NCBI GenBank assembly: GCA_017941705.1
Contig: JAGAVX010000032.1
Span: 1 to 51,753 of the forward strand
Direction of reading: 5' to 3'
Origin: Atopobiaceae bacterium
GTDB lineage: Bacteria > Actinomycetota > Coriobacteriia > Coriobacteriales > Atopobiaceae
DNA: 51,753 nucleotides
Position numbers and translations under genes: made by a program. Below the pieces are notes generated by a model. That model was not told the DNA's origin. It saw nothing but the letters and a program-made list of their open reading frames with translations, and made no database searches. Position 1 is the first letter of the stretch. Every line of letters starts with the position of its first letter. Shown here piece by piece: positions 3,688-32,511 of the stretch.

Positions 3688-3758
3688 CACCATCCACTCG
3701 CGCGATTGGTGCCCTATCCTCAAACCACCTGCATACGCATCGCCCAATGGGAGGAACC

Positions 3759-5316: not shown

Positions 5317-6738
5317 ATGAAGCTCACCAACAAGTGCATGCTCATCACCTACGCCGACAGCCTTGGCAAGAACCTGACCGACCTCAAGGAGGTGCTCGAC
5401 ACCCATCTCGACAAGGCCGTGGGCGGCGTCCACATCCTGCCCTTCTTCCCCAGCTCCGCAGACCGCGGCTTTGCCCCCATGCGCTACGACATCGTCGATC
5501 CCGACTTTGGCGACTGGTCCGACGTCAAGGCCATCGGAGATGACCGCTACCTGATGTTCGACTTCATGATCAACCACATCTCGCGCCAGAGCCCCTACTT
5601 CCAGGACTTCCTGGCCAAGAAGGACGACAGCGAGTTCGCGGACTTCTTCATCCGCTACAAGGACTTCTGGGCGGCGGAGGGCGGCTTCCCGACCGACGAG
5701 CAGGTCGACGCCATCTACAAGCGCAAGCCGCGCGCACCCTACGTCGAGGCCGAGTTCGCCGACGGCACCACCGAGAAGGTCTGGTGCACCTTTGGCGAGG
5801 AGCAGATCGACATCAACGTGAAGAGCGAGCGCGCGCAGCGCTTCTTCCGCGAGACGCTCGAGAACATGGCCGACAACGGCGCCTCGATCATCCGCCTGGA
5901 CGCCTTCGCCTATGCCTGCAAGCGTGCCGGCGGCAGCTGCTTCTTCGAGCAGCCCGACACGTCCAACCTGCTCAACGCCATGCAGGAGGTCCTGGGCGAC
6001 GACATCATGGTGCTGCCCGAGATCCACGAGCACTACACCATGCAGTTCAAGGTCTCCGAGATGGGCTACTGGGTGTACGACTTCGCGCTGCCCGTGCTGA
6101 CGCTTCACGCCCTGTACTCCGGCGACGGCCAGTACCTCAAGCGCTGGCTCGAGATGAGCCCCAAGCACCAGTTCACCACGCTGGACACCCATGACGGCCT
6201 GGGCATCGTCGACGTCAAGGACCTGCTGCCCGACGAGGCGACCGACTGGGTCAAGGAGAAGATGTTCTCGGAGGGCGCCAACGTCAAGAAGATCTACAAC
6301 ACCGAGGCCTACAACAACCTCGACATCTACCAGGTGAACACCACCTACTACAGCGCGCTGGGCAACGAGGACGCAGCCTATGACCTGGCCCGCGCCATCC
6401 AGATGTTCGCCAAGGGCATCCCCATGGTGTACTACGTGGGCCTGCTCGCCGGCAAGAACGACATCGAGCTGCTCGAGTCCACCAAGGAAGGACGCAACAT
6501 CAACCGCCACTATTACACGCGCGACGAGATCGCCGAGGAGGTCGAGCGTCCCGTGGTCAAGGAGCTGCTGCGCCTGATGGAGCTGCGCAACACCCATCCC
6601 GCCTTTGACATCGAGGGCGACCTCGAGGTCACCTGCGGCGAGGACGGCTCCTTCACCATGCGCCGCACCTCTGGCGACGCATGGGCCGAGCTCAACGCCA
6701 ACCTCAAGGACCACAGCTACGAAGTCACCTGCTCGTAG
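5317..6738 (+). CDS. gtfA: Sucrose phosphorylase (GH13 subfamily 18)
   Basis: A 473-residue GH13_18 enzyme that converts sucrose and phosphate to glucose 1-phosphate and fructose. The length and sequence closely follow streptococcal GtfA. Visible landmarks are FMINHIS, IIRLDAFAYA with nucleophile Asp195, MVLPEIHEHY with acid/base Glu235, and TTLDTHDG with Asp290. The segment NLDIYQVN carries a Tyr (residue 338) as in ordinary sucrose phosphorylases; this favours free sucrose over sucrose phosphate as substrate, an inference from recalled family alignments. It is intracellular (no signal peptide), has an AGGAGG ribosome site, and follows the GH32 gene in one unit, ended by a terminator at 6761. 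Confidence 0.92.
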   Translation: MKLTNKCMLITYADSLGKNLTDLKEVLDTHLDKAVGGVHILPFFPSSADRGFAPMRYDIVDPDFGDWSDVKAIGDDRYLMFDFMINHISRQSPYFQDFLAKKDDSEFADFFIRYKDFWAAEGGFPTDEQVDAIYKRKPRAPYVEAEFADGTTEKVWCTFGEEQIDINVKSERAQRFFRETLENMADNGASIIRLDAFAYACKRAGGSCFFEQPDTSNLLNAMQEVLGDDIMVLPEIHEHYTMQFKVSEMGYWVYDFALPVLTLHALYSGDGQYLKRWLEMSPKHQFTTLDTHDGLGIVDVKDLLPDEATDWVKEKMFSEGANVKKIYNTEAYNNLDIYQVNTTYYSALGNEDAAYDLARAIQMFAKGIPMVYYVGLLAGKNDIELLESTKEGRNINRHYYTRDEIAEEVERPVVKELLRLMELRNTHPAFDIEGDLEVTCGEDGSFTMRRTSGDAWAELNANLKDHSYEVTCS

Positions 6739-6760
6739 ACCGGCCAGCGCACCTGGGTAC

Positions 6761-6798
6761 GGCGGCAACCGAGGGCACTCCTCTCGGTTGCCGCCTTT
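6761..6798 (+). terminator. Rho-independent terminator after gtfA
   Basis: A perfect 13-bp stem (6761-6773 with 6783-6795, arm GGCGGCAACCGAG), 9-base loop, followed by TTTG. It starts 22 bases after the gtfA stop codon. Confidence 0.75.
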
Positions 6799-6818
6799 GT
6801 CATATGCTCGTTTATGTG

Positions 6819-6832
6819 CGAGAACGTTCCCA
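6819..6832. promoter_or_regulatory. LacI-type operator upstream of first LacI gene
   Basis: CGAGAACGTTCCCA, 14 bp centred on CG, same family as the site at 16825 (12 of 14 positions). It lies 106 bases before the regulator start and suggests autoregulation. Confidence 0.6.
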
Positions 6833-6938
6833 CAATATGCGTTTATCCTGCAATCGAGACCATCGTGAGACACCATGCGCCAATGCGCCGCACCGAACCA
6901 GCTACGATGATTCACGGGATCCTACAAGGGGCTGATTC

Positions 6939-7922
6939 ATGGACATAAACGAAATAGCACGCCTTGCCGGCGTATCGAGAGCCACCGTTTCGCGCTATCT
7001 CAACAATGGCTACGTCAGTCAGGAGAAGCGCAAGCTCATCAGCCGCGTCATCCAGGAGACGGGCTACGTTCCCTCCCAGTCGGCGCAACAGCTCCGTACC
7101 GGCAAGACCAACCTCGTGGGCATCATCATCCCCAAGATGAACTCGCAGTCGGTATCGCGCATGGTCTCCGGCATGACCGAGGGCTTCGTCGGAACCGACT
7201 ACCACACGCTCCTCTCCAACACCAACAACGACCCCGACGAGGAGGTGCGGTGCCTGCGCGTGCTTGCCGATCGACCCCGCGTCGACGGCGTCATCCTGCT
7301 TGCATCGGTCATCACCGACGAGCACATAGCGGCCTTGCGGGCACTCAAATTCCCCGTCGTCATCCTCGGTCAGCACGTCGACGGTTTCAGCTGCGTCTAT
7401 CACGACGACTACCGCGCCACCTTTGATGTCGCAAAGGTCGCCCTGAGGCACGCCAAGCACCCTGCGTTCATCGGTGTGCGCGACGATGACGTGTCAGCTG
7501 GCGCCATGCGCCACCGTGGCTTTCTCGACGCCTGCCACGCCGCCGGAATCGAGGTCGCAGACCAAGTCCAGATGCAGGGCGAATTCACGATAGAGTCCGG
7601 CTACCTGTGCTGCGAGCAGATCATGGACATAGCGCCCGAGACCGACGCCGTCATCTGCGCCACCGACAACATCGCATACGGCGCCATCACCTGCCTGCGG
7701 GAATACGGGCACCGCGTCCCGGATGACGTGCAGGTGACCGGCATCGGAGACTCGGAGCTCTCGCGCGTCATCGTCCCCTCGGTGACCAGCGCACACCTCT
7801 TCTTCAAGACCAGCGGGCTCGAAGCCAGCAAGATGCTCATCGCGGCCATGGACAACGGGGACGAGATTCCGCGTCAGCTCAAGATGGGCTACGAGATCTA
7901 CGGGCGCAACTCGACACGGTAG
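6939..7922 (+). CDS. LacI family transcriptional regulator (ScrR-like)
   Basis: A 327-residue LacI/GalR repressor. The N-terminal helix-turn-helix is MDINEIARLAGVSRATVSRYLNNG (split here: residues 1-12 and 13-24), followed by a hinge and the periplasmic-binding-protein-like sugar domain (about 62-320) with VDGVILLAS and AVICATDNIAYGA segments typical of the family. An AAGGGG ribosome site precedes the ATG. Placed between gtfA and the PTS genes and preceded by an operator of the sucrose family, it is the best candidate to control that regulon, responding to a sucrose-derived sugar. A second LacI regulator follows directly, so which protein binds which operator variant cannot be decided from sequence. 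Confidence 0.88.
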   Translation: MDINEIARLAGVSRATVSRYLNNGYVSQEKRKLISRVIQETGYVPSQSAQQLRTGKTNLVGIIIPKMNSQSVSRMVSGMTEGFVGTDYHTLLSNTNNDPDEEVRCLRVLADRPRVDGVILLASVITDEHIAALRALKFPVVILGQHVDGFSCVYHDDYRATFDVAKVALRHAKHPAFIGVRDDDVSAGAMRHRGFLDACHAAGIEVADQVQMQGEFTIESGYLCCEQIMDIAPETDAVICATDNIAYGAITCLREYGHRVPDDVQVTGIGDSELSRVIVPSVTSAHLFFKTSGLEASKMLIAAMDNGDEIPRQLKMGYEIYGRNSTR

Positions 7923-7969
7923 GCATCGCCGTCCTCGCCTTATCGCCGCCCACCCGCCCGTTCTAGCAC

Positions 7970-7995
7970 CCCACAACCCCTCTTTGTGGGCTTTC
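7970..7995 (+). terminator. Possible weak terminator between the two LacI genes
   Basis: Arms CCCACAA (7970-7976) and TTGTGGG (7984-7990), 7-base loop, followed by CTTTC. Short stem and no clear T run, so tentative. Confidence 0.35.
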
Positions 7996-8044
7996 ACGCT
8001 AAACTAGGAGAACTCACCACATCAGAGGACGGGCAGACCGGGGC

Positions 8045-9022
8045 ATGACCAACAAGGAAGTCGCAGAGCTTGCAGGCGTCTCGAGCGCAGCCGTGTCACG
8101 CTTTCTCAACGGAGGCTACCTCTCCGAGGAGAAGCGCGAGCGCATAGCCGCCGCCATCGAGCAGACGGGCTACGTGCCTTCTGCCAATGCCCGAATCCTC
8201 CGCCTCAAGAAGTCCGACACGGTGGGCATCATCCTCACCAAGAGCGACGAGAGCACCCTAAGTGGCGTCGCGACCGGCCTCGAGAAATACCTGTTTGCCG
8301 CCGGCTACGGGGCATCGCTTGCCTACGTTGGCGACGACGAGGGTGCCGACTTCAACGCCATGCGCTCCATGCTCGAACGCCAGATCGACGGCATCGTGCT
8401 CATCAGCTCCGCACCCGTCCCCGGCGACCTCGAGCTCTTCGAGCGAGCGCGCGTCCCCGTCGTCATCGTCGGCCAGCATGCACGCAACCGCAACTGCGTG
8501 CGCTTTGACAACTTTGGCGCTGCATACGACCTTGCCTCCTCGCTCGGTTGCACCATGGAGAGCCGCGTCGCCTACGTCGATGCCGGCAAGCGCTACCGCT
8601 CGTTTGGCAGCGACCGACGCAAGGGATTTCTCGCCGGCCTTGAGCGTGCCGGAGTGCCCTCCGACCGCATCACCGTCATCACTGGCGGGTTCTCGGTCGA
8701 CGAAGGCTACTACGCGGTCAAGAAGCTCTTTGCGACCAGGAACGACTACGACTTCATCTCTTGCGCGACCGACAGCATGGCCGCCGGCGCCATCAAGGCC
8801 ATCCGCGAGCAGTCTGGCTCGATTCGGCGCCACAAGCAGCCTCGCGTATCTGGCTTTGGGAACGACCCCATCCTGCAAGCGGTGGCCGGCCCCATCCCCA
8901 CTGTGCGCTTTGACTATGAGGAGTGCGGCATCAAGGCTGCCGAGATGATGGTCGACCTTCTCAAGGGCGAGGTGAAGAGCGTCGCAAGCATGGTGCTCGG
9001 CTACGAGGTAGTCGGCGCCTAA
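8045..9022 (+). CDS. LacI family transcriptional regulator, second copy
   Basis: A 325-residue LacI/GalR regulator, paralogous to the one just upstream. The DNA-binding helix is KEVAELAGVSSAAVSRFLN, then GYVPSANARILRLKKSDTVG as hinge, then the sugar-binding core with DGIVLISSAPVP and FISCATDSMAAGA. Its recognition helix differs from the first copy (SSAAVSRFLNGG against SRATVSRYLNNG), so the two may read different operator variants. Only a weak ribosome site (GGGG, 3 bases from the ATG) is seen and no operator of the sucrose family lies directly in front, suggesting read-through from the first regulator. It is followed by the first PTS gene after 234 bases. Confidence 0.87.
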   Translation: MTNKEVAELAGVSSAAVSRFLNGGYLSEEKRERIAAAIEQTGYVPSANARILRLKKSDTVGIILTKSDESTLSGVATGLEKYLFAAGYGASLAYVGDDEGADFNAMRSMLERQIDGIVLISSAPVPGDLELFERARVPVVIVGQHARNRNCVRFDNFGAAYDLASSLGCTMESRVAYVDAGKRYRSFGSDRRKGFLAGLERAGVPSDRITVITGGFSVDEGYYAVKKLFATRNDYDFISCATDSMAAGAIKAIREQSGSIRRHKQPRVSGFGNDPILQAVAGPIPTVRFDYEECGIKAAEMMVDLLKGEVKSVASMVLGYEVVGA

Positions 9023-9149
9023 AAAGCGCAGCACAGACTGCCCAGGCAATCAACGGCGGCGCATTCGCCGTGCGGGTCGGCGGCGGTACCCGTCACCACC
9101 TGTCACCTATCTCTTGGCGTCATTGCGCCTTTTTTCTTGCATATGAATG

Positions 9150-9163
9150 TGAAATCGATTACA
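9150..9163. promoter_or_regulatory. LacI-type operator upstream of first PTS gene
   Basis: TGAAATCGATTACA, 14 bp centred on CG, of the GAAATC half-site variety. It is the distal of two sites before this gene. Confidence 0.6.
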
Positions 9164-9182
9164 GTTTCGCATCAGTTAGGTG

Positions 9183-9207
9183 GAGTGTTTTTCCATGAAA
9201 AACACTC
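9183..9207. repeat. 25-bp perfect inverted repeat in PTS leader
   Basis: Arms GAGTGTTTTTC (9183-9193) and GAAAAACACTC (9197-9207) pair perfectly around a CAT loop. It sits between the two candidate operators and 50 bases before the PTS start. It may be an extra protein site or an RNA hairpin in the leader. It is followed by two tandem copies of ACTCTGAAAT (9204-9213, 9214-9223). Confidence 0.75.
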
Positions 9208-9217
9208 TGAAATACTC

Positions 9218-9231
9218 TGAAATTGATTTCA
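9218..9231. promoter_or_regulatory. Proximal LacI-type operator before first PTS gene
   Basis: TGAAATTGATTTCA, a near-perfect palindrome; the centre is TG instead of CG. With the site at 9150 it gives two operators 68 bp apart, a spacing compatible with looping. Confidence 0.5.
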
Positions 9232-9256
9232 CTCAGAAGGAAAGAAGGAGGGTACT

Positions 9257-11158
9257 ATGGCACTTGATGCCGCACAGGCAGCCAAAGAGATTCTGGCAGC
9301 CGTGGGTGGTCCCGAGAACGTCGTCTCGGCAGCCCACTGCGCAACCCGTCTGCGTCTCGTGATCGCAGATGACTCGAAGGTCGACAAGGACGCCGTCGAG
9401 GACGCCCTTGGCGCCAAGGGCAACTTCCAGGCCTCAGGCCAGCTGCAGATCATCTACGGTACCGGCACCGTCAACAAGGTCTACGAGGAGTTCTGCAAGC
9501 AGGGCAACATCTCCGCGGTCTCCAAGGAGGAGCTCAAGGACGTCGCCGCCGGCAACCAGAACAAGTTCATGGCCGCCATCAAGGTGCTCTCCGACGTCTT
9601 CGTCCCCATCATCCCGGCCATCGTCGCCTCCGGTATGCTCATGGGCATCATGGGTGCTCTCGAGTTCATGTCCAACTCGGGCATGATCGCCATCAACACC
9701 GAGGGCGTCTGGTGGCGCATTGCCGGCCTCATCAACGCCTGCGCACTTGCCAACCTGCAGATCCTGCTCGGCTTCTCTGCCGCGACCGTCTTTGGCGGCA
9801 ACCCCTACCTGGGCGCCTCGTTTGGCGCGCTGCTCATCAGCAGCAGCTTCATCAATGCCTACGCGGCGGCAGACGCCATCGCCAACGGCACCATGATCAC
9901 GCTTGACGTCATCCCCGGCCTCTACAGCATCGACTGGATCGGCTACCAGGGACACGTCATCCCCATTCTGGTAGGCGTCTGGATCATGTGCGCCATCGAG
10001 AAGAAGATGCACCAGATCGTGCCTGACATGTTCGACCTCTTCGTGACGCCGCTCGTGTCGGTCGCCGGTGCTGCCTACATCACCATCCTGTTCATCGGCC
10101 CGATCTTCGTCTGGCTCGAGAACGCCATCCTCGGCCTGCTCACCGCGCTGCTCTCCGTGCCGCTGGGCCTTGGCTACATCCTCATCGGCCTTATCTACTC
10201 TCCCTCCGTCGTCACCGGCCTGCACCAGATGTACACCACCATCGACGTCTCGATGCTCGGCCAGTATGGCGTGACCTACTGGCTGCCCATCGCCTCGGCC
10301 GCCAACATCGCCCAGGGCGGTGCCTGCCTGGCCGTCGCCCTCAAGACCAAGAGCGAGAAGACCAAGGCGCTCGCCATCCCCTCCGGCATCTCCTGCCTGC
10401 TCGGCATCACCGAGCCCGCCATCTTTGGTGTCAACCTGCCCAAGCTTAAGCCGTTCCTGGCTGGCATGGCCGGCGCAGCCGTAGGCGCCTTCATCTGCTC
10501 GCTTACCAAACTCGCGGCTTCCGGCACCGGCGTCACCGGCCTGTTTGGCATCCTGCTGTGCATCCAGCAGCCCGTTCAGTACATCATCATGTTCCTCGCC
10601 TCGTTCGGCGTGGCTTTTGCCCTCACCTGGATCCTCTACAGCGATGAGCCCGACAAGCAGCGCGCCCCCAAGGCAGTCGCTCCTGCCCACGTCGACGCCA
10701 TCGCCCAGGCTGGCGTGCTCGCCAGCCCCATGACCGGCAACGCCATCGCCATGTCCGACGCTCCCGACGCCGTCTTCGCCAGCCTCGCCATGGGCAACGG
10801 CGCTGTCGTCGAGCCGACCGCGGGCGAGGTCTACTCCCCCTGCGACGGCACCGTCACGATGCTGTTCGACACCAAGCACGCCGTGGGCCTGATGGCCGAC
10901 GACGGCACCGAGATCCTGATCCACATCGGCGTCGACACCGTCCAGCTCGAGGGCAAGCCCTTCGTGGCCCACGTCGCCGCTGGCGACAAGGTCAAGGCGG
11001 GCGACCTGCTGATCACCGCCGACCTCGACGAGATCGCGGCGGCCGGCAAGCCCACCGCGACCATGGTCATCGTCACCAACACCGACGACTACGCCTCCGT
11101 GACGCCCGAGCTCGGCGCTGTCAAGGCCGGCGAGAAGCTCGTCACCGTGGCCAAGTAA
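9257..11158 (+). CDS. PTS sucrose/beta-glucoside-type EIIBCA permease
   Basis: A 633-residue phosphotransferase permease that imports and phosphorylates a sugar, probably sucrose from its neighbours. Domain order is EIIB (residues 1-85, phospho-Cys28 in AAHCATRLRL), EIIC membrane domain (about 105-460, with SGISCLLGITEPAIFGVNLP), and EIIA (about 480-633, phospho-His556 in ILIHIGVDTVQL). The ATG follows AAGGAGGGTACT. Transcription is probably governed by operators at 9150 and 9218. The EIIA end and the EIIB end are strikingly similar in DNA to the next PTS gene while the EIIC part differs, which suggests gene conversion at the ends and a different transport specificity in the middle. Confidence 0.92.
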   Translation: MALDAAQAAKEILAAVGGPENVVSAAHCATRLRLVIADDSKVDKDAVEDALGAKGNFQASGQLQIIYGTGTVNKVYEEFCKQGNISAVSKEELKDVAAGNQNKFMAAIKVLSDVFVPIIPAIVASGMLMGIMGALEFMSNSGMIAINTEGVWWRIAGLINACALANLQILLGFSAATVFGGNPYLGASFGALLISSSFINAYAAADAIANGTMITLDVIPGLYSIDWIGYQGHVIPILVGVWIMCAIEKKMHQIVPDMFDLFVTPLVSVAGAAYITILFIGPIFVWLENAILGLLTALLSVPLGLGYILIGLIYSPSVVTGLHQMYTTIDVSMLGQYGVTYWLPIASAANIAQGGACLAVALKTKSEKTKALAIPSGISCLLGITEPAIFGVNLPKLKPFLAGMAGAAVGAFICSLTKLAASGTGVTGLFGILLCIQQPVQYIIMFLASFGVAFALTWILYSDEPDKQRAPKAVAPAHVDAIAQAGVLASPMTGNAIAMSDAPDAVFASLAMGNGAVVEPTAGEVYSPCDGTVTMLFDTKHAVGLMADDGTEILIHIGVDTVQLEGKPFVAHVAAGDKVKAGDLLITADLDEIAAAGKPTATMVIVTNTDDYASVTPELGAVKAGEKLVTVAK

Positions 11159-16768: not shown

Positions 16769-16804
16769 GGGGGCGACCGCACATGCGGCCGTCCCCTCTT
16801 TTAC
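16769..16804 (+). terminator. Terminator after fructokinase gene
   Basis: Imperfect GC-rich stem (GGGGGCGACCGCA at 16769-16781 with TGCGGCCGTCCCC at 16784-16796) followed by TCTTTT. Confidence 0.6.
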
Positions 16805-16824
16805 GCTGGCGCACCATGCCATAC

Positions 16825-16838
16825 TGGGAACGTTCCCA
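16825..16838. promoter_or_regulatory. Perfect palindromic LacI-type operator before second GH32 gene
   Basis: TGGGAACGTTCCCA is a perfect 14-bp palindrome, 38 bases upstream of the GH32 start. It is the best copy of the site family and serves as the reference for the other six. Confidence 0.75.
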
Positions 16839-16875
16839 TCACATCCGAGCGGCATCACGCGAGAGGAGCACACCC

Positions 16876-18405
16876 ATGCAGATGCACGTCAACCTCGATT
16901 ACCGTCAGCACAACTGGAGGCTTGGCTTCCACCTGCAGACCGCAGTGGGTTGGCTCTCCGACCCCAACGGCCTGTGCCAGTTCAATGGCGAGTATCACAT
17001 CTTCCACCAGTATGCGCCGCGCTGGCCGTGGCCAGGCCACGGTTGGGGTCATTGGACGAGCAAGGATATGGTCACGTGGGAGTTCCATCGTGGGGCCATC
17101 ATCCCCGAGATGGAGCTGGACAAGAACGGCTCGTATTCCGGCTCGGCCGTCGTACGTGACGGTGAGATGTGGTGCTACTACACCGGCAACGTCCTCGAGC
17201 CCGGTCACGACAACTATGACTACGAGGGTCGTCAGGCCAACGAGACGCTCGTCACCAGCAAGGATGGACGTACCTTCTCGGACCGCAAGCTCGTCCTGGG
17301 CAACGACGGCTATCCCGACTACTGCAGCTGCCACGTGCGCGACCCCAAGGTCTGGTGGCAGAACGACACCTGGAACATGCTGCTGGGCGCCCGCACGATG
17401 GACGACCACCCCGCCATGCTGCTGTATCAGAGCCCCGACGGCGTCAACGACTGGAAGCTGGCCGGCAGCTGCACCACCATCAGCGGCAAGCCCTTTGGCT
17501 ACATGTGGGAGTGCCCCAACATCGTGACCCTCGGTGGTCGCGAGTTCTTCTTCGTGTGCCCGCAGGGCGTGCCCAGCCGCATGACCAAGTTCCAGAACAA
17601 CTTTAACAGCGGCTACTTCCCCGTGGAGGGAACCGTCATCGACCTGCTGTCTGGTGACAAGGGCCTCATGGATGCCGATGCCCCGTACGGTTGCATCGAC
17701 GAGGATACCTTCGTCGAGCTTGACTACGGCTTTGACTTCTACGCGCCCCAGGTCTTCACCGATGAGAAGGGTCGCCAGATCCTGGTGGGCTGGATGGGAC
17801 TGCCCGACATCGAGCTGCAGTACCAGGTGCCGACCTACGAGTGGCTGCACACCCTCACCTGGCTGCGCGAACTCTCGCTCAACGACGCCGGCAAGATCTG
17901 CCAGTGGCCCTGCGAGGAGTACAACGCCCTGCGTGGCAAGCGCATCGACTTCACCGCCGAGGGAGCCAAGGACTCCAACGGCAAGCTTGGCAGCTCGAAC
18001 TACGACGCCTTTGACATCGAGGGCGCCATCGGTGCGAAGTTTGCCAACGGTACCGCCGATGTGCGTCTGAAGGGTATCGAGGGCGAGGGCCGCATCCTGC
18101 TGAACGCCGACCTCGAGCTGGCTGTGATTGGCGACATGATCGAGCTTTCGTTCAAGGGCATCGCCGGTGGCTATCGCACCATGCGCCGCCTGCCTCTCTC
18201 CGAGCTCTCGGCCGGCAAGCTGGAGGACATCCGCATGGTCGTCGACACCTCCGCCATCGAGATCTACCTCAATGGCGGCGAGCACACGATGAGCACCCGC
18301 TGGTGGCCGCAGGAAATCACCAACCTCAACATCACCTCCACTTTCAAGGCAGCCGAGACCTACGCCTACGAGATGGGACGCTTCGAGTTCCTCAACGTCT
18401 GCTAG
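16876..18405 (+). CDS. scrB: GH32 sucrose(-6-phosphate) hydrolase, second copy
   Basis: A 509-residue family 32 hydrolase. Signatures: WLSDPNG with nucleophile Asp29 (Ser replaces the usual Asn before it), HVRDPKVW with Asp156, and MWECPN with acid/base Glu212; the C-terminal beta-sandwich holds VVDTSAIEIYLNGG. There is no signal peptide, so the enzyme is intracellular. The ATG at 16876 follows GAGAGGAG; the frame stays open upstream to 16783, across the operator, so the later start is preferred. It shares the CSCHVRDPKVW block with the copy at 3759 but differs over much of its length, so these are old paralogues that may act on different fructosides. A strong terminator follows. Confidence 0.92.
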   Translation: MQMHVNLDYRQHNWRLGFHLQTAVGWLSDPNGLCQFNGEYHIFHQYAPRWPWPGHGWGHWTSKDMVTWEFHRGAIIPEMELDKNGSYSGSAVVRDGEMWCYYTGNVLEPGHDNYDYEGRQANETLVTSKDGRTFSDRKLVLGNDGYPDYCSCHVRDPKVWWQNDTWNMLLGARTMDDHPAMLLYQSPDGVNDWKLAGSCTTISGKPFGYMWECPNIVTLGGREFFFVCPQGVPSRMTKFQNNFNSGYFPVEGTVIDLLSGDKGLMDADAPYGCIDEDTFVELDYGFDFYAPQVFTDEKGRQILVGWMGLPDIELQYQVPTYEWLHTLTWLRELSLNDAGKICQWPCEEYNALRGKRIDFTAEGAKDSNGKLGSSNYDAFDIEGAIGAKFANGTADVRLKGIEGEGRILLNADLELAVIGDMIELSFKGIAGGYRTMRRLPLSELSAGKLEDIRMVVDTSAIEIYLNGGEHTMSTRWWPQEITNLNITSTFKAAETYAYEMGRFEFLNVC

Positions 18406-22131: not shown

Positions 22132-23088
22132 CTACAGCGCCTCCCACGACGCGTACGCGGAATCCCCGCGATGGTCAGGCAGGTCATACTCGTCGTCAAG
22201 CAGGGCACTCATGTAGTGCGAGAACTTCTCCGCCCCGCTGGCATTGAGGTGGTCTCCCCCATCCTTTGAGTCAGTGGACCAGTCCAGCCCAATCTCCTCA
22301 GTCGACAAGTTGAGGTCGAGGTAGGAGACGCCATGCTCCTTTGCCCAAGCCTCGACGGCATTGTGCCGTTCAGCGCTCCAGTCGACGACACTCGGCACGC
22401 TCACCAAAACAGGTATTGCCCCGGCCTCTTCACAGGCATCGACCATGCGGCCGAGGAAGAGATCGCCTTGAGTGTCAATCTCCTCTGCAGCGCTTGTCTC
22501 GTCGATTTGATCCAGATACTCATCGAGGTCTTCCCCATCAACGGCGTCCGTCTGGTTCTCGATGCGTGCGCCCTTATGCGGGTCAATCCACGTTGCCTCG
22601 GGTCGCGTAACGAGGTCACTGGGCTTGAACACGCGCCACCGGCTGTGATAACGAAGTATGGGAAGATGCATCTGCAGCTCATTGAGCAGGGCAAACTCCC
22701 AGGTAAATGGGACAAAGACATCGTGGGTCTCGATCAGCACGACCTTGGGCGACTGGTTCTTGAGGGCATTGCTGAGCATGGTATAGCCCTCGGGAAGCTT
22801 TTGCGCGAGTGACGAGCATACAAACAGGGTGTATCCGCGATCGCCCCAGAACTGCTTGGGCCAAAAGCTGTTGAGGGCGAGGCTGTCACCCACCACCACC
22901 ACGTCAATCGTGTCCTGTGGCTCGGCGGCTATGCCACTCGTCCCCGCGTCAAAAAGACCGAACTCGGAATTGTTGGTCTTGGGCTCAAACAGGCGTGACG
23001 CCACAAGCAGGGCGGCAAGCAGGGCTGCCGCCACGGCAAGGGCACGCAATGCGGCCTTGACACCCTGAGCTGTCTCGTTATCCGTCAT
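22132..23088 (-). CDS. SGNH/DltD-like membrane-anchored transferase or hydrolase
   Basis: A 318-residue protein with one N-terminal membrane segment (about residues 10-30) and an extracytoplasmic SGNH-type domain. The nucleophile block is VVVVGDSLALNSFW (Ser in GDS) and the C-terminal block is GGDHLNASGAEKF with the Asp-x-x-His-like pair (DH). This is the place and look of DltD or of SGNH proteins that pair with MBOAT enzymes to put acyl groups on surface polymers. It is the last gene of the five-gene operon, its ribosome site AGGAG overlapping the stop codon of the MBOAT gene nine bases away. The acceptor polymer is unknown. Confidence 0.78.
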   Translation of the reverse strand: MTDNETAQGVKAALRALAVAAALLAALLVASRLFEPKTNNSEFGLFDAGTSGIAAEPQDTIDVVVVGDSLALNSFWPKQFWGDRGYTLFVCSSLAQKLPEGYTMLSNALKNQSPKVVLIETHDVFVPFTWEFALLNELQMHLPILRYHSRWRVFKPSDLVTRPEATWIDPHKGARIENQTDAVDGEDLDEYLDQIDETSAAEEIDTQGDLFLGRMVDACEEAGAIPVLVSVPSVVDWSAERHNAVEAWAKEHGVSYLDLNLSTEEIGLDWSTDSKDGGDHLNASGAEKFSHYMSALLDDEYDLPDHRGDSAYASWEAL

Positions 23089-23097
23089 CGCTTGCTC

Positions 23098-24684
23098 CTA
23101 GTACTGCGCATACATGGGATCCACGGGAATATAGCCAATGCCATATGCTCCAAAGATCACCACTGTCATGACGATTGCGATCCAGATGGCCCAACGCACC
23201 ACAAAGCCCTTTTGCTCGATGAGGGAGCGCAGGTCATGCCCGCGCTCGTAGGCGAGGTCGTAGAGAAACACCAAGGGGATGAAGAGCAGCGATGCCGCAA
23301 AGTCCGCACGGCTCATGCAGGCAAACACCGTGCCGTCCGCGAATGAGCGCAGCGAAAAGCCGGTCAGGATGCGCGAGAACATGGCGATGCCGTCGCCCAG
23401 GCTGTTGGCCCTAAAGAACAGCTCGCCGACAAAGATCACCAATAGGGTGCGCACACCCCTCAGCACGCGATACCATCCGGCATCGCGGTCAATCCCATGC
23501 TCGGACGCCCATGCACGCGCAGAGGGCTCCACAAAGCCACCCAGCCAGATGACCACAAAGTAATACAGGCCAAAGAATAGATACTGTGAGCCGGCACCGT
23601 GCCACAACCCGTTGCCAAGCCAGACGCAGAACAGCGCGATGCCGCTCACCAGCAGCGGGCCGTAGCGGTTGCCAAAGCGCTTGCGGGCTATGGTGGTCAG
23701 GCGCTTGACCGGCTTGGAGAGCGACACGGGATAGTACACGTAGTCCTTGAACCACGCACCAAGCGTTATGTGCCAGCGCTGCCAGAACTCGGAAGCCGTC
23801 TTTGAGAAGAAGGGCTGGCGGAAGTTCTCGGGATAGTCAACGCCAAACAGCTGGCCCAGCCCGATCGACACGTCCATGCAGCCGGAGAAGTCGCAATACA
23901 GCTGGATGGTGTACAAGACGGCGCCAAGTGCGATGATGCCTCCGTCATAAGACTCGTAAGAGCCAAACACCGTCTTCACGTACAGGTTGAGGCGGTCCGC
24001 CACCAGCAGCTTCTTGGCAAAGCCGATGGCCATGCGCAGCATGCCACGATAGAGGGCCTTTCCGTCGATAGGCCTACCCTTCCAGAGCGACTCTGCCGTC
24101 TGGGAGTAGCGGGCGATGGGCCCCTCCATGATGTGTGGGAAGAAGCTGAGGAAGAGGGCAAGACGCCCAAAGTTGCCGTCAGCCGGCGTCGTCTCGCGAT
24201 ACACGTCGACCAGGTACGACACCGCCATCATCGTGTAGAAGGAGATGCCAATGGGGGCCCCGATCGACGGAACCGACACAGGCGTCTGCCAACCAAACAG
24301 ACCCAAGAGAGGAGACGCGAGCTCGCTGAAGAACCCAAGGTAGTTGAGCGCAATCAAGATGCCAAAGTTTGCCACGATTCCCGCGACCAGCAAACGCCTC
24401 GCACGCTGGGCATAGCTGGCCTTTATCGCACGCTTGCCCTTCTTGACCTTGGCGAGCTCCTCGTCGCGTTGGGCAAAGATCCTCTTGATGCCCAAGCCAA
24501 GCGCGTATACGCACACGGTGGTCACCAGCATGAAGCCCACCAAGGGCCCACTGATGATCCATGCGAACGCATAGCTGGCCAAAAGCAGCACATAGGCGCG
24601 CACGCGCTGCGGGACGACGGTATACGCCAGCAGCACGAGCGGGAGGAATATAAGAATGAAAATCAGAGTGAAATACGATGTCAT
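23098..24684 (-). CDS. MBOAT family O-acyltransferase (DltB/AlgI-like)
   Basis: A 528-residue polytopic membrane protein of the MBOAT family. The conserved block FWQRWHITLGAWFKDYVYYP (about residues 305-325) and the catalytic-His block NGLWHGAG are clear; the N-terminus LIFLPLVLLAYTVVP is typical for AlgI/DltB. In DltB such proteins move an acyl group from a carrier protein across the membrane. Here it lies between a carrier-protein gene and an SGNH gene, the order expected for an acyl-export pair, so its donor is probably the acyl form of the carrier at 24773. Its start is 88 bases after that gene. Confidence 0.88.
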   Translation of the reverse strand: MTSYFTLIFILIFLPLVLLAYTVVPQRVRAYVLLLASYAFAWIISGPLVGFMLVTTVCVYALGLGIKRIFAQRDEELAKVKKGKRAIKASYAQRARRLLVAGIVANFGILIALNYLGFFSELASPLLGLFGWQTPVSVPSIGAPIGISFYTMMAVSYLVDVYRETTPADGNFGRLALFLSFFPHIMEGPIARYSQTAESLWKGRPIDGKALYRGMLRMAIGFAKKLLVADRLNLYVKTVFGSYESYDGGIIALGAVLYTIQLYCDFSGCMDVSIGLGQLFGVDYPENFRQPFFSKTASEFWQRWHITLGAWFKDYVYYPVSLSKPVKRLTTIARKRFGNRYGPLLVSGIALFCVWLGNGLWHGAGSQYLFFGLYYFVVIWLGGFVEPSARAWASEHGIDRDAGWYRVLRGVRTLLVIFVGELFFRANSLGDGIAMFSRILTGFSLRSFADGTVFACMSRADFAASLLFIPLVFLYDLAYERGHDLRSLIEQKGFVVRWAIWIAIVMTVVIFGAYGIGYIPVDPMYAQY

Positions 24685-24772
24685 GGCAATTCAGTCAACG
24701 CGTCCATCAGGACTTCCGACGCCTGCCGGGCAGGTTCGGTCCGACAGGGCTTGTTGGGAAGCCGCTGAGCCG

Positions 24773-25012
24773 CTAGTCGAGATCGTCCTCGGCGAGCCTC
24801 TCCACGAGAGCCGTAATGGCATCGACAGAATTGAAGTTCTCCGCGACAACCTCCACAGCGGGAATGGTTATGTCGAACTCGTCCTCGAGCTCGGCCACCA
24901 GCGACACCATGCCCAACGACTCGATGTGGCGGTCATCGATGAGGGTGGTGCAGGTGTCGTAGTCGACGTCGGGGTTGATGTCCTCGAGAATCTCGATGAT
25001 CTGGTCTCTCAC
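24773..25012 (-). CDS. Acyl/aminoacyl carrier protein (DltC-like)
   Basis: A 79-residue acidic carrier protein. The phosphopantetheine site is Ser32 in HIESLGMVSLVAELEDEF, with Glu-Ser-Leu in place of the common Asp-Ser-Leu; the following helix ELEDEFDI is typical. It starts at a GTG; the ribosome site TAGGAG overlaps the stop of the decarboxylase gene nine bases upstream, so the two are coupled. It should receive the amino acid activated by the adenylation enzyme of the same operon. It could instead be a general acyl carrier protein, but placement argues for a dedicated one. Confidence 0.88.
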   Translation of the reverse strand: MRDQIIEILEDINPDVDYDTCTTLIDDRHIESLGMVSLVAELEDEFDITIPAVEVVAENFNSVDAITALVERLAEDDLD

Positions 25013-25021
25013 TTGAAACTC

Positions 25022-26236
25022 CTATTCAGAAAGCTCTATCTGTCCGTTAACGATTGTAGGGCTATTGAGCGACCAGGATTCCAGTCGCTTTCGCACCAAC
25101 CTGAGATTTCCCTCCGTATCGCACATAACGACTGCCGGAAGATCGCGACTCAGGAAGAGCGAGATGCCCTCGGTCATGCAATATGCCCCCGCGCGGCCAA
25201 AGCACAGCACGTCACCGACACGCGGCTCGCAGACTTCGAGCTGCTTGACCATGATATCGGTGACCGTACAGAGCGACCCGCAGATGTTCCATGGCGCGGG
25301 CGTGCCATCGATACGCTCCGGAATCAGCGCGCAGGGAGGCTGGCGCATCGACATGGCGTTGCCATAGTAGACGAACTGGTGCTTGCCGCCGTCCACGATG
25401 GCATAGTTGCCCGTCTCGTTGCTCTTGGTGTCGACGATGCCGGTCGCATAGGTGCCACAGCTTGCCACCATACCCCTGCCCAGCTCGAGCGCCACCTTAC
25501 CGTCGAAGTCCATATCAGCCAGCAGCCCATCAAGCGCGGCGATGAGCTCGTCCTGCTCGGCGCGGGCGACCTCGGCAGGCTCGTAGTACGAGACAGGAAG
25601 CCCCGGGCCATACTCAAGCTCGGCCACCCTCACGCCGCACTCCTCCCAAAGGCGTGCGATGAGGCGATCGATGCCTCGCAGCTCTCGGCCGATACGCTTT
25701 GACGAGGTCTTCTGGGTGCCCGAGTAATGCTGGATGCCACAGAACTCGACCAGTGGCTCTTCCTTGCAGCGCCGCGCGAGCTCCACCACCTCGTCGGCAG
25801 CGATGCCAAACTGGTTGCCGCTCGTCAGGCGCATGAGGATGCTGATTGGCCGTCCCGCCTCGTGCGCCGCCTGGCAGAGCAGGTCAAACTGGGCACGCGA
25901 CTCGACGGTGTAGCGGGCGATGCCGGGGTGCGCGCAGACCGTCTCGCCAATGAATGCCACATCTTTGTGCACGCCCGAGATGACGATCTTCTCGTCGGGT
26001 ATACCCAGCTCAAAGCAGGTATAGGCCTCACCAGGCGAGCAGACCTCAATGCGCTCCACATCACGGGCAGCCTGCTGCAGCACAAACGAGTTGGCCTTCA
26101 TGGCATAGCAGAGCTCGATCTGGGGCGAGAGCAGCGAGCGCAGGTGCGCCACCTGACGATGGAGCTCTCCCTCGTCAAAGAGGTAGAAAGGGGTGGGATA
26201 CTGGTCGATCGCCCTTAGCAGCACGTCCCCGCTCAT
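25022..26236 (-). CDS. PLP-dependent decarboxylase, DAP/ornithine decarboxylase fold (type III)
   Basis: A 404-residue fold-type III PLP enzyme of the DapDC/LysA family. The PLP lysine lies in CYAMKANS (about residue 47); other landmarks are GIQHYSGTQ (usual HIGSQ), the glycine block EYGPGLPVSYY, the EPGR-like ELGRGMVASCGTY, the active-site Cys block ICGSLCTVTD (usual GPVCESGD), and the PLP-binding Tyr in RAGAYC. These Cys and Tyr features mark decarboxylases rather than alanine racemases. It is divergent from true LysA. Its ATG overlaps the TGA of the adenylation gene (ATGA) and its stop abuts the carrier gene, so it belongs to that pathway. BtrK of butirosin synthesis, which decarboxylates a carrier-bound glutamyl group, is a known parallel. 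Confidence 0.88.
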   Translation of the reverse strand: MSGDVLLRAIDQYPTPFYLFDEGELHRQVAHLRSLLSPQIELCYAMKANSFVLQQAARDVERIEVCSPGEAYTCFELGIPDEKIVISGVHKDVAFIGETVCAHPGIARYTVESRAQFDLLCQAAHEAGRPISILMRLTSGNQFGIAADEVVELARRCKEEPLVEFCGIQHYSGTQKTSSKRIGRELRGIDRLIARLWEECGVRVAELEYGPGLPVSYYEPAEVARAEQDELIAALDGLLADMDFDGKVALELGRGMVASCGTYATGIVDTKSNETGNYAIVDGGKHQFVYYGNAMSMRQPPCALIPERIDGTPAPWNICGSLCTVTDIMVKQLEVCEPRVGDVLCFGRAGAYCMTEGISLFLSRDLPAVVMCDTEGNLRLVRKRLESWSLNSPTIVNGQIELSE

Positions 26237-27783
26237 CGCGTACCACCAGCCCTTCTCTCGCGGCGCAGCCTCTTCCAGGTCTCGACCAGCTGCTTGCGGT
26301 CGACCTTTCCGTGCTTGTTGAGCGGCATGTCGTCGAGCCTCTCGATGCTCGACGGCCGCATGTGACTGGGAAGCTGGTCCTTGGCGAGGTCAAGCAGCTC
26401 CTGTCGCTCGGCCGTACCCTCATAGAACGCACGGAGACGCTTGCTCTTCTCGTCAAAGACGCAACGACAGCGCGTGACACCCTCAAAACGCTCGAACGCG
26501 AGGTCAATCTCCTCGAGCTCGATGCGGTGCCCCTGGTACTTGATCTGGTTGTCGGCACGTCCCGCAAAGAAGAGCTCTCCCTGGTCGGAGTAGACGCCAA
26601 GGTCGCCAGAGCGGTACACGAGCTCGGGAAACACGTGATTGAGGGGATTCTGCACGAACGCGGCCTGCGTCACTTCTGGCATGCCCAGATACCCAAGCGA
26701 GAGCGAGGGGCCGCTCACCGCAATCTCACCCTTCTCCCCCGCCTCCTGTACCTGCGAGCCGTCCGCTGACAGCAGGTACACGTTGCAGTGCGCGAACGAC
26801 TCGCCCAGCGGAATGCCCTCGTCATAGGAGCGGTCGGGATCGAGCACGTGGTACAGGCAGTTGCAGGTGATCTCGGTCGGGCCATACAGGTTGACGAACG
26901 TTGCCTGCGGGAGATGCGAGCGCCAGTCGGCAAGGTGCCTGCGGGGCATGACCTCGCCGCTAAAGAGCGCCATACGAATGGTGTCAAGCCGTGCGCCCTC
27001 GAGCGCATGGTAGGTGCTCACGATACCCATTGCCGCAACGGCCCAGATGAGCACCGTCACGCTATGCTGCCCAAGGTATTCGACAAGCGCAACGGGCTGC
27101 ATGAACAGCTCGCGAGGGATGATGACCAAGGTGGCACCCAGCGAGAGCGCGCTGTAGATGTCCTTGGTCGAGACGTCAAAGTCAAAGGGCGCCTGATTGC
27201 CAAAGCGATCCTGTGACGTAAAGCCAAAGGTCGTGGTGAACGACTCGATGAACGAGGCGATGGCGTGGTGCGAGATGGTCACGCCCTTGGGCTCGCCGGT
27301 CGAGCCAGAGGTGAACAAGACGTATGCGGGATCAGTCTCGAGCGTGTTCGCGCGGGCAGTGGTCAGAGCAGCTTCGTCGACGTCAGCCGCAAAGAGCTCG
27401 TCCGGGCTCATAACACGTAGCGTCACCGCGTCGCCCAAGTCGGAGACTATCGTCTGGTCGTCGGTCACGATCACCGACGCGCCAAGGCGCGCGACGATCT
27501 GCCCAAGGCGCGAGGATGGCATGTGCGGGTCGACAGGCACATAGAACGCCCCTGCAAAGAGCGTCCCCATCATCACGGCGAGCATCTTCGCGCTCTTCTC
27601 GAGAGCAATGACGACGCCTTGCCGGGCAACGTTCGCATGCGCGAGAGCCGTGCCCGCGCGCTTGCTACGCTCCAGCAGCTCAGCATACGTAAGAGACTCC
27701 GACGCATCCTCAACGGCGGTTGCCTGGGGTGTGCGCTCGGCACTCGCCTCAAGGTATCCGACCACGTTCTTCTGTAGATGCAT
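26233..27783 (-). CDS. Amino acid adenylation enzyme (DltA/NRPS A-domain-like)
   Basis: A 516-residue stand-alone adenylation enzyme that activates an amino acid with ATP and loads it on a carrier protein. Core motifs are clear: YVLFTSGSTGEPKGV (A3), NLYGPTEIT (A5), YRSGDLG (A7), GRADNQIKYQGHRIE (A8) and PLNKHGKVDR with the catalytic Lys (A10). The GEVMP segment recalls DltA GEVLP. In the A4 region APFDFDVSTKDIY, the Asp that holds the alpha-amino group is kept, but the position occupied by Met in DltA (239 in GrsA numbering) is Lys. The ATG at 27783 follows GGGGGACTTTG. First gene of the five-gene operon. Confidence 0.88.
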   Translation of the reverse strand: MHLQKNVVGYLEASAERTPQATAVEDASESLTYAELLERSKRAGTALAHANVARQGVVIALEKSAKMLAVMMGTLFAGAFYVPVDPHMPSSRLGQIVARLGASVIVTDDQTIVSDLGDAVTLRVMSPDELFAADVDEAALTTARANTLETDPAYVLFTSGSTGEPKGVTISHHAIASFIESFTTTFGFTSQDRFGNQAPFDFDVSTKDIYSALSLGATLVIIPRELFMQPVALVEYLGQHSVTVLIWAVAAMGIVSTYHALEGARLDTIRMALFSGEVMPRRHLADWRSHLPQATFVNLYGPTEITCNCLYHVLDPDRSYDEGIPLGESFAHCNVYLLSADGSQVQEAGEKGEIAVSGPSLSLGYLGMPEVTQAAFVQNPLNHVFPELVYRSGDLGVYSDQGELFFAGRADNQIKYQGHRIELEEIDLAFERFEGVTRCRCVFDEKSKRLRAFYEGTAERQELLDLAKDQLPSHMRPSSIERLDDMPLNKHGKVDRKQLVETWKRLRRERRAGGTR

Positions 27784-30344: not shown

Positions 30345-30473
30345 CGAACCGCACCATCCCCTTGCTGCTTCCCCGTACCGCATGAACGCAATCGCGTGTC
30401 ATACTGGGAGCAGCAAGGGGATTTTTGTCTGGCGACGAGCGTCCGCCAGCCACCACGTACGCGAGGAGCACAG

Positions 30474-31181
30474 ATGGCCAGGATTCTGATAGTCGAGGAC
30501 GAGGCGAAGATCGCCCGATTCATCGAGCTCGAGCTTATCCACGAGGGCTACGAGGTGGACAAGGCAGCCGATGGCCGAACTGGCGTCGAGATGGCCTTGG
30601 AAGGCGACTACGACCTGATCCTGCTGGACGTCCTGCTCCCCCAGCTCAACGGCATGGAGGTGCTTCGGCGCATACGGCGCGAGAGCGACGTTCCCGTCAT
30701 CATGCTCACCGCGCGCGACGCCGTCATGGACAAGGTGGCCGGCCTCGACGCGGGAGCCGACGACTACATCACCAAGCCCTTCGCCATCGAGGAGCTGCTC
30801 GCGCGCATCCGCGTAGCACTCAAACGCCACGAAGCCACCGCGGCCACGCCAGTGGCAGCCGCTAGCCCGGAGCCCGATCACCACGTGCTGACCATCAACG
30901 GCGTCTCGCTCGACGTGGAGCGGCACGAGGTGAAGGTCGGCGACGACCCCATCGAGCTCACCAATCGCGAGTTCGAGGTGCTCAAGGCCCTCATGGAGAA
31001 CCGCAATGTCGTCATGACGCGCGACCGCCTGGTGCAGCTGGCATGCGGCTATGACTTTGTGGGCGAGACCAACATCATCGATGTCTACGTTCGCCATCTG
31101 CGCTCAAAGATTGACGACCGCTATGGCATCAAGCTCATAACCACCGTTCGTGGAGTCGGATATGTCATCAGGGAGAACTAG
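30474..31181 (+). CDS. OmpR/PhoB family response regulator
   Basis: A 235-residue response regulator. The receiver domain has the acidic pair Glu8-Asp9 in IVEDEAK, phospho-acceptor Asp52 in LILLDVLLP, the Thr/Ser in MLTARD and Lys101 in YITKPF. The C-terminal winged helix (about 140-235) has LTNREFEVLKALMEN and VYVRHLRSKID. The ATG at 30474 follows GCGAGGAGCACAG. It overlaps the kinase gene by 20 bases, showing translational coupling. The signal and target genes are not evident from the sequence. Confidence 0.93.
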   Translation: MARILIVEDEAKIARFIELELIHEGYEVDKAADGRTGVEMALEGDYDLILLDVLLPQLNGMEVLRRIRRESDVPVIMLTARDAVMDKVAGLDAGADDYITKPFAIEELLARIRVALKRHEATAATPVAAASPEPDHHVLTINGVSLDVERHEVKVGDDPIELTNREFEVLKALMENRNVVMTRDRLVQLACGYDFVGETNIIDVYVRHLRSKIDDRYGIKLITTVRGVGYVIREN

Positions 31182-32511
31182 CGACAGCCGCGTACGACTG
31201 AGCGCATCGCGCCCGACCGCATCGATCGCACGCTCGATAAGCTGGGGCTTCACCTGGCGCAAGCTGACGCGCTGGCTGTTTCAGGATGTGCTGGTGGTTT
31301 CGCTTCTGATCTGCGCCTTCGTATGGCACTGCACGGCGGCGCTGCCCGCGGCGGCAGCCGACGGCATCACCGAAAACGTTCTGGGAACGCCCATCGTCGC
31401 GCCATCCCATTGCGCTTTCACCGGCAGTGGAACAGACATCACGACGTGGTCGTTCACCATCCACGGAGGCGACGGGATCGAGTACGTGACCATGGTGGAA
31501 CCCTACCTGCGACTTCTCATGCCACCAGTGGCCTTCATGCTCTTCTGCCAGGTGCTCGACCTGTTTGACTTCTTCAGTGACACGCGACGCGTGCGTCGCA
31601 AGCTCCAACCCCTCAACGACCTCGCCGTCGCCGCCGAGGCCATCGGTCAGGTGACCGCCGGCACCGATCCCATGGCAAACGACAGCAAGATGGCAACCCT
31701 CGAGCAGGCCATCGAGCGCGCGACCGTCGACTCGCCCACCGTCTCGACGGGCGACAAGGACCTGCGCAGCATCGAGGTCGCCCTCAACGGCCTGCTGCGC
31801 CAGATGCAGGAGGCAAAGCTCCAGCAGATGCGCTTTGTCAGCGATGCCAGCCACGAGCTGCGCACACCCATCGCCGTTATCCAGGGGTACGTGAACATGC
31901 TCGACCGCTGGGGCAAGACTGACGAGGAGGTGCTGGATGAGTCCATCGAGGCGCTCAAGGCCGAGTCGGACCACATGAAGGACCTCGTCGAGGCACTGCT
32001 GTTCTTGGCGCGCGGCGACTCGGGTCGCAACGCACTCGAGTTTGCGGACGTCAATATGGCCCAGGTGGTCCACGAGGTCTGGGAGGAGTCCTGCATGATC
32101 GACGAATCGCACGTATACTCGTGCTCGCTGCAGGAGGCCGACCTCGACGACCCGCGCTTTGCGACTACTGGCGACTTGGGAATGCTCAAGCAGTCGCTGC
32201 GCATCATCGTGCAGAATGCCGAGAAGTACTCCCCCGACGGCTCGACCATCACGCTGTCGGCACGCCGCGAGGGCAAGTACGTCTCGTACACGGTGCAGGA
32301 CGAGGGCATCGGCATGACGGACGCCGAGGTCAAGCACATCTTTGAGCGCTTCTATCGCGCCGATGGCGCACGTGACGGCAAGAGCGACGGATCGGGTCTT
32401 GGACTTTCCATAGCAAAATGGATTATCGACGCGCATGGCGGTACTATCGAGGTCCTGTCACGCGAGGGTGTGGGCACACGCTTTACCGTGCGCCTCAAGG
32501 CCAACGCCTAG
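31162..32511 (+). CDS. Sensor histidine kinase
   Basis: A 449-residue membrane histidine kinase. Two membrane helices (about 42-62 and 118-138) enclose a short 55-residue extracellular loop; a HAMP-like linker follows; the HisKA block is VSDASHELRTPIAVIQGY with phospho-His231; the ATPase has the N box NAEKYSPDG, G1 DEGIGM and G2 GSGLGLSIAKWIIDAHGG. The short loop suggests sensing within or near the membrane. I prefer the ATG at 31162 (GGAG upstream) over an in-frame GTG at 31150. It is encoded directly after its response regulator. Confidence 0.92.
   Translation: MSSGRTSDSRVRLSASRPTASIARSISWGFTWRKLTRWLFQDVLVVSLLICAFVWHCTAALPAAAADGITENVLGTPIVAPSHCAFTGSGTDITTWSFTIHGGDGIEYVTMVEPYLRLLMPPVAFMLFCQVLDLFDFFSDTRRVRRKLQPLNDLAVAAEAIGQVTAGTDPMANDSKMATLEQAIERATVDSPTVSTGDKDLRSIEVALNGLLRQMQEAKLQQMRFVSDASHELRTPIAVIQGYVNMLDRWGKTDEEVLDESIEALKAESDHMKDLVEALLFLARGDSGRNALEFADVNMAQVVHEVWEESCMIDESHVYSCSLQEADLDDPRFATTGDLGMLKQSLRIIVQNAEKYSPDGSTITLSARREGKYVSYTVQDEGIGMTDAEVKHIFERFYRADGARDGKSDGSGLGLSIAKWIIDAHGGTIEVLSREGVGTRFTVRLKANA

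Follow-up and report, generated by a model that had tools for sequence, protein, structure and literature searches.

A Dlt-like operon with an integrated decarboxylase, a candidate system for surface-polymer acylation in Coriobacteriia and Bacillota

Introduction

In Gram-positive bacteria, D-alanylation determines the charge of the cell surface and how well cells resist cationic peptides. The dltABCD/X operon encodes a stand-alone adenylation enzyme, a carrier protein, a membrane-bound O-acyltransferase (MBOAT) and an SGNH protein, with a carrier thioester as donor and a Tyr hexapeptide as shuttle. Here we describe an operon that shares this plan, found in a 51,753-nt contig of an Atopobiaceae bacterium (GenBank assembly GCA_017941705.1, contig JAGAVX010000032.1; the whole stretch is called the window below). 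Unlike dlt, it contains an additional gene for a pyridoxal phosphate (PLP)-dependent fold-III decarboxylase, follows another gene order and has the shuttle motif fused to the MBOAT rather than placed on DltX. The operon probably serves a form of carrier-dependent envelope acylation to which a decarboxylation step has been added, with a substrate and an acceptor that we infer.

In PatA/PatB and AlgI-type systems, as in the window operon, an MBOAT with a fused FXYXXF-type hexapeptide has an SGNH partner, but the donor is acyl-CoA and there is no carrier protein; PatA acylates the Tyr of its C-terminal hexapeptide, from which the SGNH partner receives the group, and DltX reportedly has this role in Dlt (PMC12148441). 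The VinN/VinO/VinL, FlvN, BolO/BolN/BolC and AfcQ/AfcP/AfcK modules share with the window operon an adenylation enzyme, a PLP fold-III decarboxylase and a free-standing carrier; they decarboxylate carrier-bound aspartate or methylaspartate and differ in feeding polyketides or lipopeptides. VinN-type enzymes load these amino acids via the side chain, using Arg331 (PMC7756342; PMC12186527), and for AfcQ/AfcP/AfcK loading followed by on-carrier decarboxylation has been proven in vitro (PMC12186527). The butirosin set BtrJ/BtrK/BtrI includes the closest solved decarboxylase, BtrK, but serves an antibiotic side chain and has no MBOAT-SGNH partner. BtrJ is not an adenylation domain. Exosortase-A-associated ligase and decarboxylase genes (TIGR03098/TIGR03099), whose function is to our knowledge uncharacterised, are neighbours in surface-polysaccharide loci, as the adenylation and decarboxylase genes are here.

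The author of a sequence-only reading of the window knew of no characterised dlt-type operon with a decarboxylase, and in the openly licensed literature (most subscription papers lay outside the search) we likewise found no description of such an operon, of β-alanine on teichoic acid or of a dlt-like MBOAT set in Lachnospiraceae. Both halves of the system are known singly; for their combination, how widely it is distributed and how consistently it occurs, the literature searched gave no description.

Results and discussion

The five-gene set recurs across two phyla

Pfam cut-offs were exceeded by the adenylation enzyme (AMP-binding), the decarboxylase (Orn/DAP/Arg), the carrier (PP-binding, PF00550, 23.6 bits; cut-off 20.8) and the MBOAT (PF03062, 49.1 bits; cut-off 27). 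The SGNH protein matched PF13472 weakly (26.9 bits; cut-off 32.9) and retains conserved GDS and D-H-L-N blocks. The five minus-strand genes and the families assigned to them in the sequence-only reading therefore hold. Searching 199 genomes of the order, we found decarboxylase orthologues in 33, a count that includes the window's own genome, at 34-100% identity, with LysA matches well separated at 23-30%; in the family of [Clostridium] citroniae an orthologue was present in 46 of 250 genomes (E <= 1e-80).

To characterize the neighbourhood, we used 107 loci with an orthologous decarboxylase, drawn from the order genomes and, for about 75 loci, from species genomes that were scanned for it. The adenylation gene was adjacent in 98 of the 107 and the carrier gene in 94, while within 9 kb an MBOAT gene was found in 90 and an SGNH gene in 82; 74 loci held all four partners. 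The commonest order, adenylation enzyme-decarboxylase-carrier-MBOAT-SGNH, occurred exactly so in 41 loci, and rearranged versions included MBOAT-SGNH-adenylation enzyme-decarboxylase-carrier. Hosts in the Actinomycetota are Coriobacteriia (Collinsella, Enorma, Olsenella, Tractidigestivibacter) and those in the Bacillota include Oscillospiraceae, Lachnospiraceae, Erysipelotrichaceae, Agathobaculum, Cuneatibacter and [Clostridium] citroniae, so that the neighbourhood search proposed in the sequence-only reading returned the set from two phyla. Given that the partners recur across 107 loci while the window genome has only three MBOAT genes in 2.8 Mb, the grouping of these genes is well beyond chance. 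A search of viral contigs gave no match.

Five Olsenella/Tractidigestivibacter loci (L056, L060, L061, L122, L123) surround a single adenylation enzyme-decarboxylase-carrier trio by a pair of MBOAT genes and as many as three SGNH genes; in these, one donor may serve several acceptors.

The decarboxylase is separate from LysA and related to BtrK

In a maximum-likelihood tree of 77 proteins the operon decarboxylases formed a clade of their own on a 100/100 branch, and LysA stood on a separate 100/100 branch; sampled BolN-like relatives fell outside the operon clade. The residue after the catalytic Cys was Thr or Ser in all 105 operon decarboxylases and Glu in all 11 LysA proteins, and the Cys-Thr pair is common to BtrK, exosortase-associated and BolN-like decarboxylases. 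The window protein carries the PLP Lys, the catalytic Cys and the Cys-Thr signature of BtrK/VinO-type carrier decarboxylases. It scored 154.7 bits against the LysA model TIGR01048 (cut-off 297.9) and 161.3 bits against the exosortase-A-associated model TIGR03099 (cut-off 478.45). A separate LysA is encoded elsewhere in the genome (G000:C118), at 279.8 bits itself just below the TIGR01048 cut-off. An origin of the decarboxylase from LysA was rejected on the tree, the absence of Cys-Glu and this separate LysA.

Among PDB chains the profile matched BtrK best (1.1e-61), about 20 bits above SbnH and 31 above the best chain named diaminopimelate (DAP) decarboxylase. The AlphaFold2 model was confident (pLDDT 93.4), and in the comparison of folds BtrK (Z 40.7) was tied with chains of the DAP decarboxylase type (Z 40.9). 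The comparison with LysA and BtrK suggested in the sequence-only reading thus set the enzyme apart from LysA with full branch support and placed BtrK first among PDB profiles; that reading would have been undermined had the genome lacked another gene for lysine synthesis, but the separate LysA is present. In fold-III decarboxylases that act on Lys, Orn or DAP, the distal amine of the substrate is contacted by an acid next to the catalytic Cys. Because this acid is replaced by Thr or Ser, a basic substrate is unlikely for the operon enzymes; for the window operon Lys, Orn and DAP are disfavoured both by the acid lost after Cys323 and by Lys239 of the adenylation enzyme, described below.

The adenylation pocket suggests an acidic amino acid

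The adenylation enzyme scored 342.3 bits against TIGR01733 (cut-off 317.4). Its AlphaFold2 model reached a pLDDT of 91.7, and structure comparison does not separate DltA from domains of non-ribosomal peptide synthetases (NRPS). Aligned to the GrsA positions, its code reads DVKALSLCNK (D203, V204, K207, A251, L273, S275, L299, C307, N308, K493). The code DVKA[L/M]SLCNK is nearly invariant over about 85 loci, varying at position 299 and a few others, and includes the pocket residues Asp235, Lys239 and Ser301. Asp235 is the usual amino-group anchor of adenylation pockets. Since Lys239 sits in an otherwise neutral pocket, a carboxylate is expected on the substrate, and the code suggests an acidic amino acid. 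D-alanine is not the obvious substrate, because the code of the genome's canonical DltA, DVTFLAGDLK, is different. The counterpart of the VinN-type Asp230, which addresses the amino group, is present as D203 and invariant in class 1 operons, and Ser275 lies at a spacing matching VinN Ser299, a residue for the α-carboxylate.

Nine loci (L109, L110, L113, L115, L116, L125, L126, L133, L140) hold a second class of operon, a Ruminococcus-type variant with the order adenylation enzyme-carrier-decarboxylase-MBOAT-SGNH. Its code, IAR[G/A]xSQASK, is without the anchor Asp235, and this variant may have another substrate or binding mode.

With 203.8 bits against TIGR03098 (cut-off 592), the window enzyme, like its decarboxylase, is far from the exosortase-A-associated pair. 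A pair of that style lies on pSymB of S. meliloti (L149, 4313-7128) among glycosyltransferase genes, with no MBOAT-SGNH seen in that locus; its ligase has Asp235 and Arg331 like VinN-type enzymes.

The predicted export half joins a carrier donor to a PatA-like MBOAT

The phosphopantetheine Ser of the carrier was invariant (99/99), the catalytic His of the MBOAT was present in 87 of 89 proteins, and the G, S and H-x-N-x-x-G residues of the SGNH protein were invariant in 49 of 49 aligned orthologues. At the MBOAT C-terminus, the shuttle Tyr is conserved in 88 of the 90 proteins of the family, and the last residue is Phe or Tyr in 88 of 90; the window hexapeptide PMYAQY deviates from FXYXXF at both outer Phe positions. 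Because a carrier donor as in Dlt is joined to an MBOAT with a fused PatA-type hexapeptide, the system appears from its sequence to be a hybrid of Dlt-like donor and PatA-like MBOAT architecture.

The operon is a second system besides canonical dlt

The operon follows the general Dlt plan in that its carrier gene is accompanied by genes for an adenylation enzyme, an MBOAT and an SGNH protein. Against the Dlt equivalog models, however, the adenylation enzyme scored 288.1 bits (DltA, TIGR01734; cut-off 559.85, which the genome's canonical DltA also misses at 441 bits), the MBOAT 139.6 bits (DltB, TIGR04091; cut-off 375, canonical DltB 412) and the carrier 34.2 bits (DltC; cut-off 68), and the SGNH protein had no match to the DltD model. 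The description 'Dlt-like' in the sequence-only reading thus calls for a qualification, as all four proteins fail these models and the MBOAT is PatA-like with a fused shuttle. A complete canonical dltABCD lies elsewhere in the same genome (L173, G000:C23:34000-50000, about 6018-10385, plus strand), with DltC and DltD over their cut-offs and, downstream, a frame that ends in FIYNQF as DltX does. Given this canonical set, the window operon was rejected as the canonical dlt and is a second, additional system. Nor did replacement of canonical Dlt emerge as a fixed rule: DltD was also present in only 6 of the 33 carriers in the order, and over cut-off in none of the eight genomes reached via named loci.

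The contig with the canonical dlt set also holds a putative third acylation locus (L172, G000:C23:1-20000, 2908-9328, plus strand), which encodes a 777-aa ILEI-domain protein, an acyl-ligase without Asp235, a 75-aa carrier, an MBOAT ending FIYMQY and an alpha/beta hydrolase.

Most Coriobacteriia loci have, close to the operon and in many cases immediately upstream of the adenylation gene, a response regulator-histidine kinase pair that belongs to one family (e.g. L048, 4626-7047, with equivalents in about 25 loci, mainly Coriobacteriia; the kinase family occurs in 28 loci), an arrangement reminiscent of dlt regulation. The two-component system of the window itself (30396-32511) is unsupported as a dedicated regulator, being of another family and 26-31% identical to the pair of the relatives.

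The presumed donor trio also occurs apart from MBOAT genes

Four Lachnospiraceae-type loci (L094, L095, L101, L108) carry adenylation enzyme, decarboxylase and carrier genes without an MBOAT, beside a DegT sugar aminotransferase. L094 further holds a UDP-sugar dehydrogenase, a Gfo/Idh oxidoreductase, a hexapeptide acyltransferase and a 2-epimerase, i.e. a whole UDP-diaminouronate-like amino-sugar pathway, which suggests that in such loci the loaded carrier would N-acylate an amino sugar with the same acyl group. Since the trio is found with acyltransferases of two kinds that are unrelated to each other, it is best explained as a movable module making a carrier-bound acyl donor.

Proposed mechanism and alternatives

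By the comparisons above the operon falls outside the Dlt, LysA, TIGR03099 and VinN-type adenylation groups, agrees with the MBOAT-SGNH pair and would work like a carrier-bound decarboxylation module. We infer a pathway in which the amino acid, its decarboxylation on the carrier rather than in free form, and the polymer modified are all assigned from kinship and motifs. The adenylation enzyme would activate an amino acid with an acidic side chain and load it on the carrier; L-aspartate, adenylated at its β-carboxyl, is the most likely one. From the carrier-bound residue the decarboxylase would remove the α-carboxyl, as kinship to BtrK/AfcP and the pocket residues suggest, leaving a β-amino acyl group, most likely β-alanyl; for β-alanine as the product we judge the chances to be about even. 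The MBOAT would then move the group from the carrier to its own Tyr525 and across the membrane, a chemistry predicted from PatA and DltX for a motif that is present, and the SGNH protein would transfer it via its Ser to a surface polymer outside. With the carboxylate lost inside the cell, the product would bear a positive charge only, unlike an exported aspartyl ester. In favour of this pathway, a search for PanD, the one aspartate decarboxylase looked for, found it neither in the window genome nor in 12 of 13 other carriers, so that a ready supply of free β-alanine is not obvious.

Several points weigh against this pathway. The adenylation enzyme is not VinN-type: aligned with the VinN-like enzymes of L146-L148, which have Arg, it has Asn308 at position 331 in place of the Arg331 that binds the α-carboxylate. 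If it loads aspartate in the manner of VinN, it would therefore do so by a different residue, and side-chain loading is suggested mainly by Lys239. This Lys is also found in α-activating glutamate domains. The tree does not firmly place the decarboxylase within one clade of carrier decarboxylases, the carrier group needing two changes with deep support of 87/56. In the openly licensed literature we found no biochemistry for any member of the family.

The same pathway might use another acidic substrate, glutamate giving a γ-aminobutyrate (GABA) group as in butirosin or a further dicarboxylic amino acid, which we consider unlikely. BtrK acts on a glutamyl-carrier, Lys239 is found in known glutamate codes and the VinN Arg331 is missing, but the invariant Asp235 suits an amino group α or β to the activated carboxyl, not γ. 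GABA thioesters cyclise readily, for which reason GABA from glutamate is less likely than β-alanine from aspartate; butirosin needs a protecting group, and no gene for one was seen in the operon. It would be biochemically simple for the decarboxylase to release a free amine or free β-alanine that the adenylation enzyme then activates and loads; the genes share one operon and, with no PanD in the genome, a source of free β-alanine would be useful. This order of events is nevertheless quite unlikely, given that BtrK, the best solved relative, acts on a carrier, that the conserved Lys239 would have no partner in β-alanine, and that the analogous AfcQ rejects β-alanine (PMC12186527) and the adenylation enzyme of the VinN system the decarboxylated product (PMC11284099).

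We also doubt that the group ends up on a capsule sugar, a membrane lipid or a secreted small molecule instead of a cell-wall polymer. The MBOAT-less modules lie in sugar clusters and related decarboxylases serve siderophores, polyketides and lipopeptides, whereas the known MBOAT-SGNH pairs with a shuttle Tyr acylate envelope polysaccharides (PMC12148441), and among the open reading frames (ORFs) and Pfam matches of the window there are none next to the operon for polyketide synthesis, NRPS or glycosyltransferases. That a duplicated biosynthetic LysA was captured by a dlt operon and has no role there would agree with the shared fold and with the clear, if sub-threshold, LysA-model score, but it can hardly be right in view of the distinct clade, the Cys-Thr/Ser pair in place of Cys-Glu, the fixed place in operons of two phyla and the LysA encoded elsewhere in the genome.

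If carrier-bound decarboxylation does feed envelope acylation, the surfaces of many gut bacteria would bear an amino-acyl group for which nobody has yet searched, as the system is present in about one-sixth of the order genomes and about one-fifth of those in the [Clostridium] citroniae family. It would join two mechanisms studied separately, antibiotic-type carrier-bound decarboxylation and Tyr-shuttle polymer acylation, with directly testable predictions. We see a possibility, somewhat short of an even chance, of a widespread and so far undescribed envelope chemistry in Coriobacteriia and Clostridia of the gut and rumen, in which surface polymers carry esters of β-alanyl or other decarboxylated amino-acyl groups made on the carrier, and a PatA-type MBOAT that exports them takes a carrier thioester rather than acyl-CoA, beside or replacing D-alanylation. 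Such operons risk being annotated as 'D-alanine ligase' and 'diaminopimelate decarboxylase'.

Operon layout and neighbouring genes

The features of the operon are listed in Table 1. The adenylation and decarboxylase genes are joined by an ATGA overlap, and for both the carrier and the SGNH gene the AGGAG site runs into the TAG stop of the gene before, as the sequence-only reading had noted; its tight gene order was borne out at all junctions but that between the carrier and MBOAT genes. The adenylation gene starts with ATG at 27783, and an in-frame TTG lies at 27816.

Table 1. Coordinates of the operon and its parts in the window
Feature	Position	Strand	Basis
Operon of five genes, adenylation enzyme-decarboxylase-carrier-MBOAT-SGNH	22132-27783	minus	ORF coordinates and family models
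Stand-alone amino-acid adenylation enzyme, 516 aa	26233..27783	minus	TIGR01733, pocket code, AlphaFold2
PLP fold-III decarboxylase, 404 aa; PLP Lys47, catalytic Cys323 followed by Thr324, Asp327	25022..26236	minus	PF02784/PF00278
Carrier protein, 79 aa, GTG start; phosphopantetheine Ser32 (IESLGM)	24773..25012	minus	PF00550
Carrier-MBOAT intergenic gap of 88 bases, sole non-tight junction	24685..24772	minus	coordinates, sequence
MBOAT acyltransferase, 528 aa; catalytic His362 (NGLWHG)	23098..24684	minus	PF03062
PMYAQY, MBOAT C-terminus; acyl-shuttle hexapeptide with third-position Tyr525, counterpart of DltX/PatA FXYXXF	23101..23118	minus	conservation in the family
Membrane-anchored SGNH acyltransferase-like protein, 318 aa; Ser69 (GDS), Asp279-His280 (DHLN)	22132..23088	minus	PF13472 (weak) and conserved blocks

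Elsewhere in the window, two plus-strand genes (3747-5240 and 16783-18405) have starts similar to those of glycoside hydrolase family 32 enzymes, WLNDPNG being one example, and LacI-like regulators are encoded close by.

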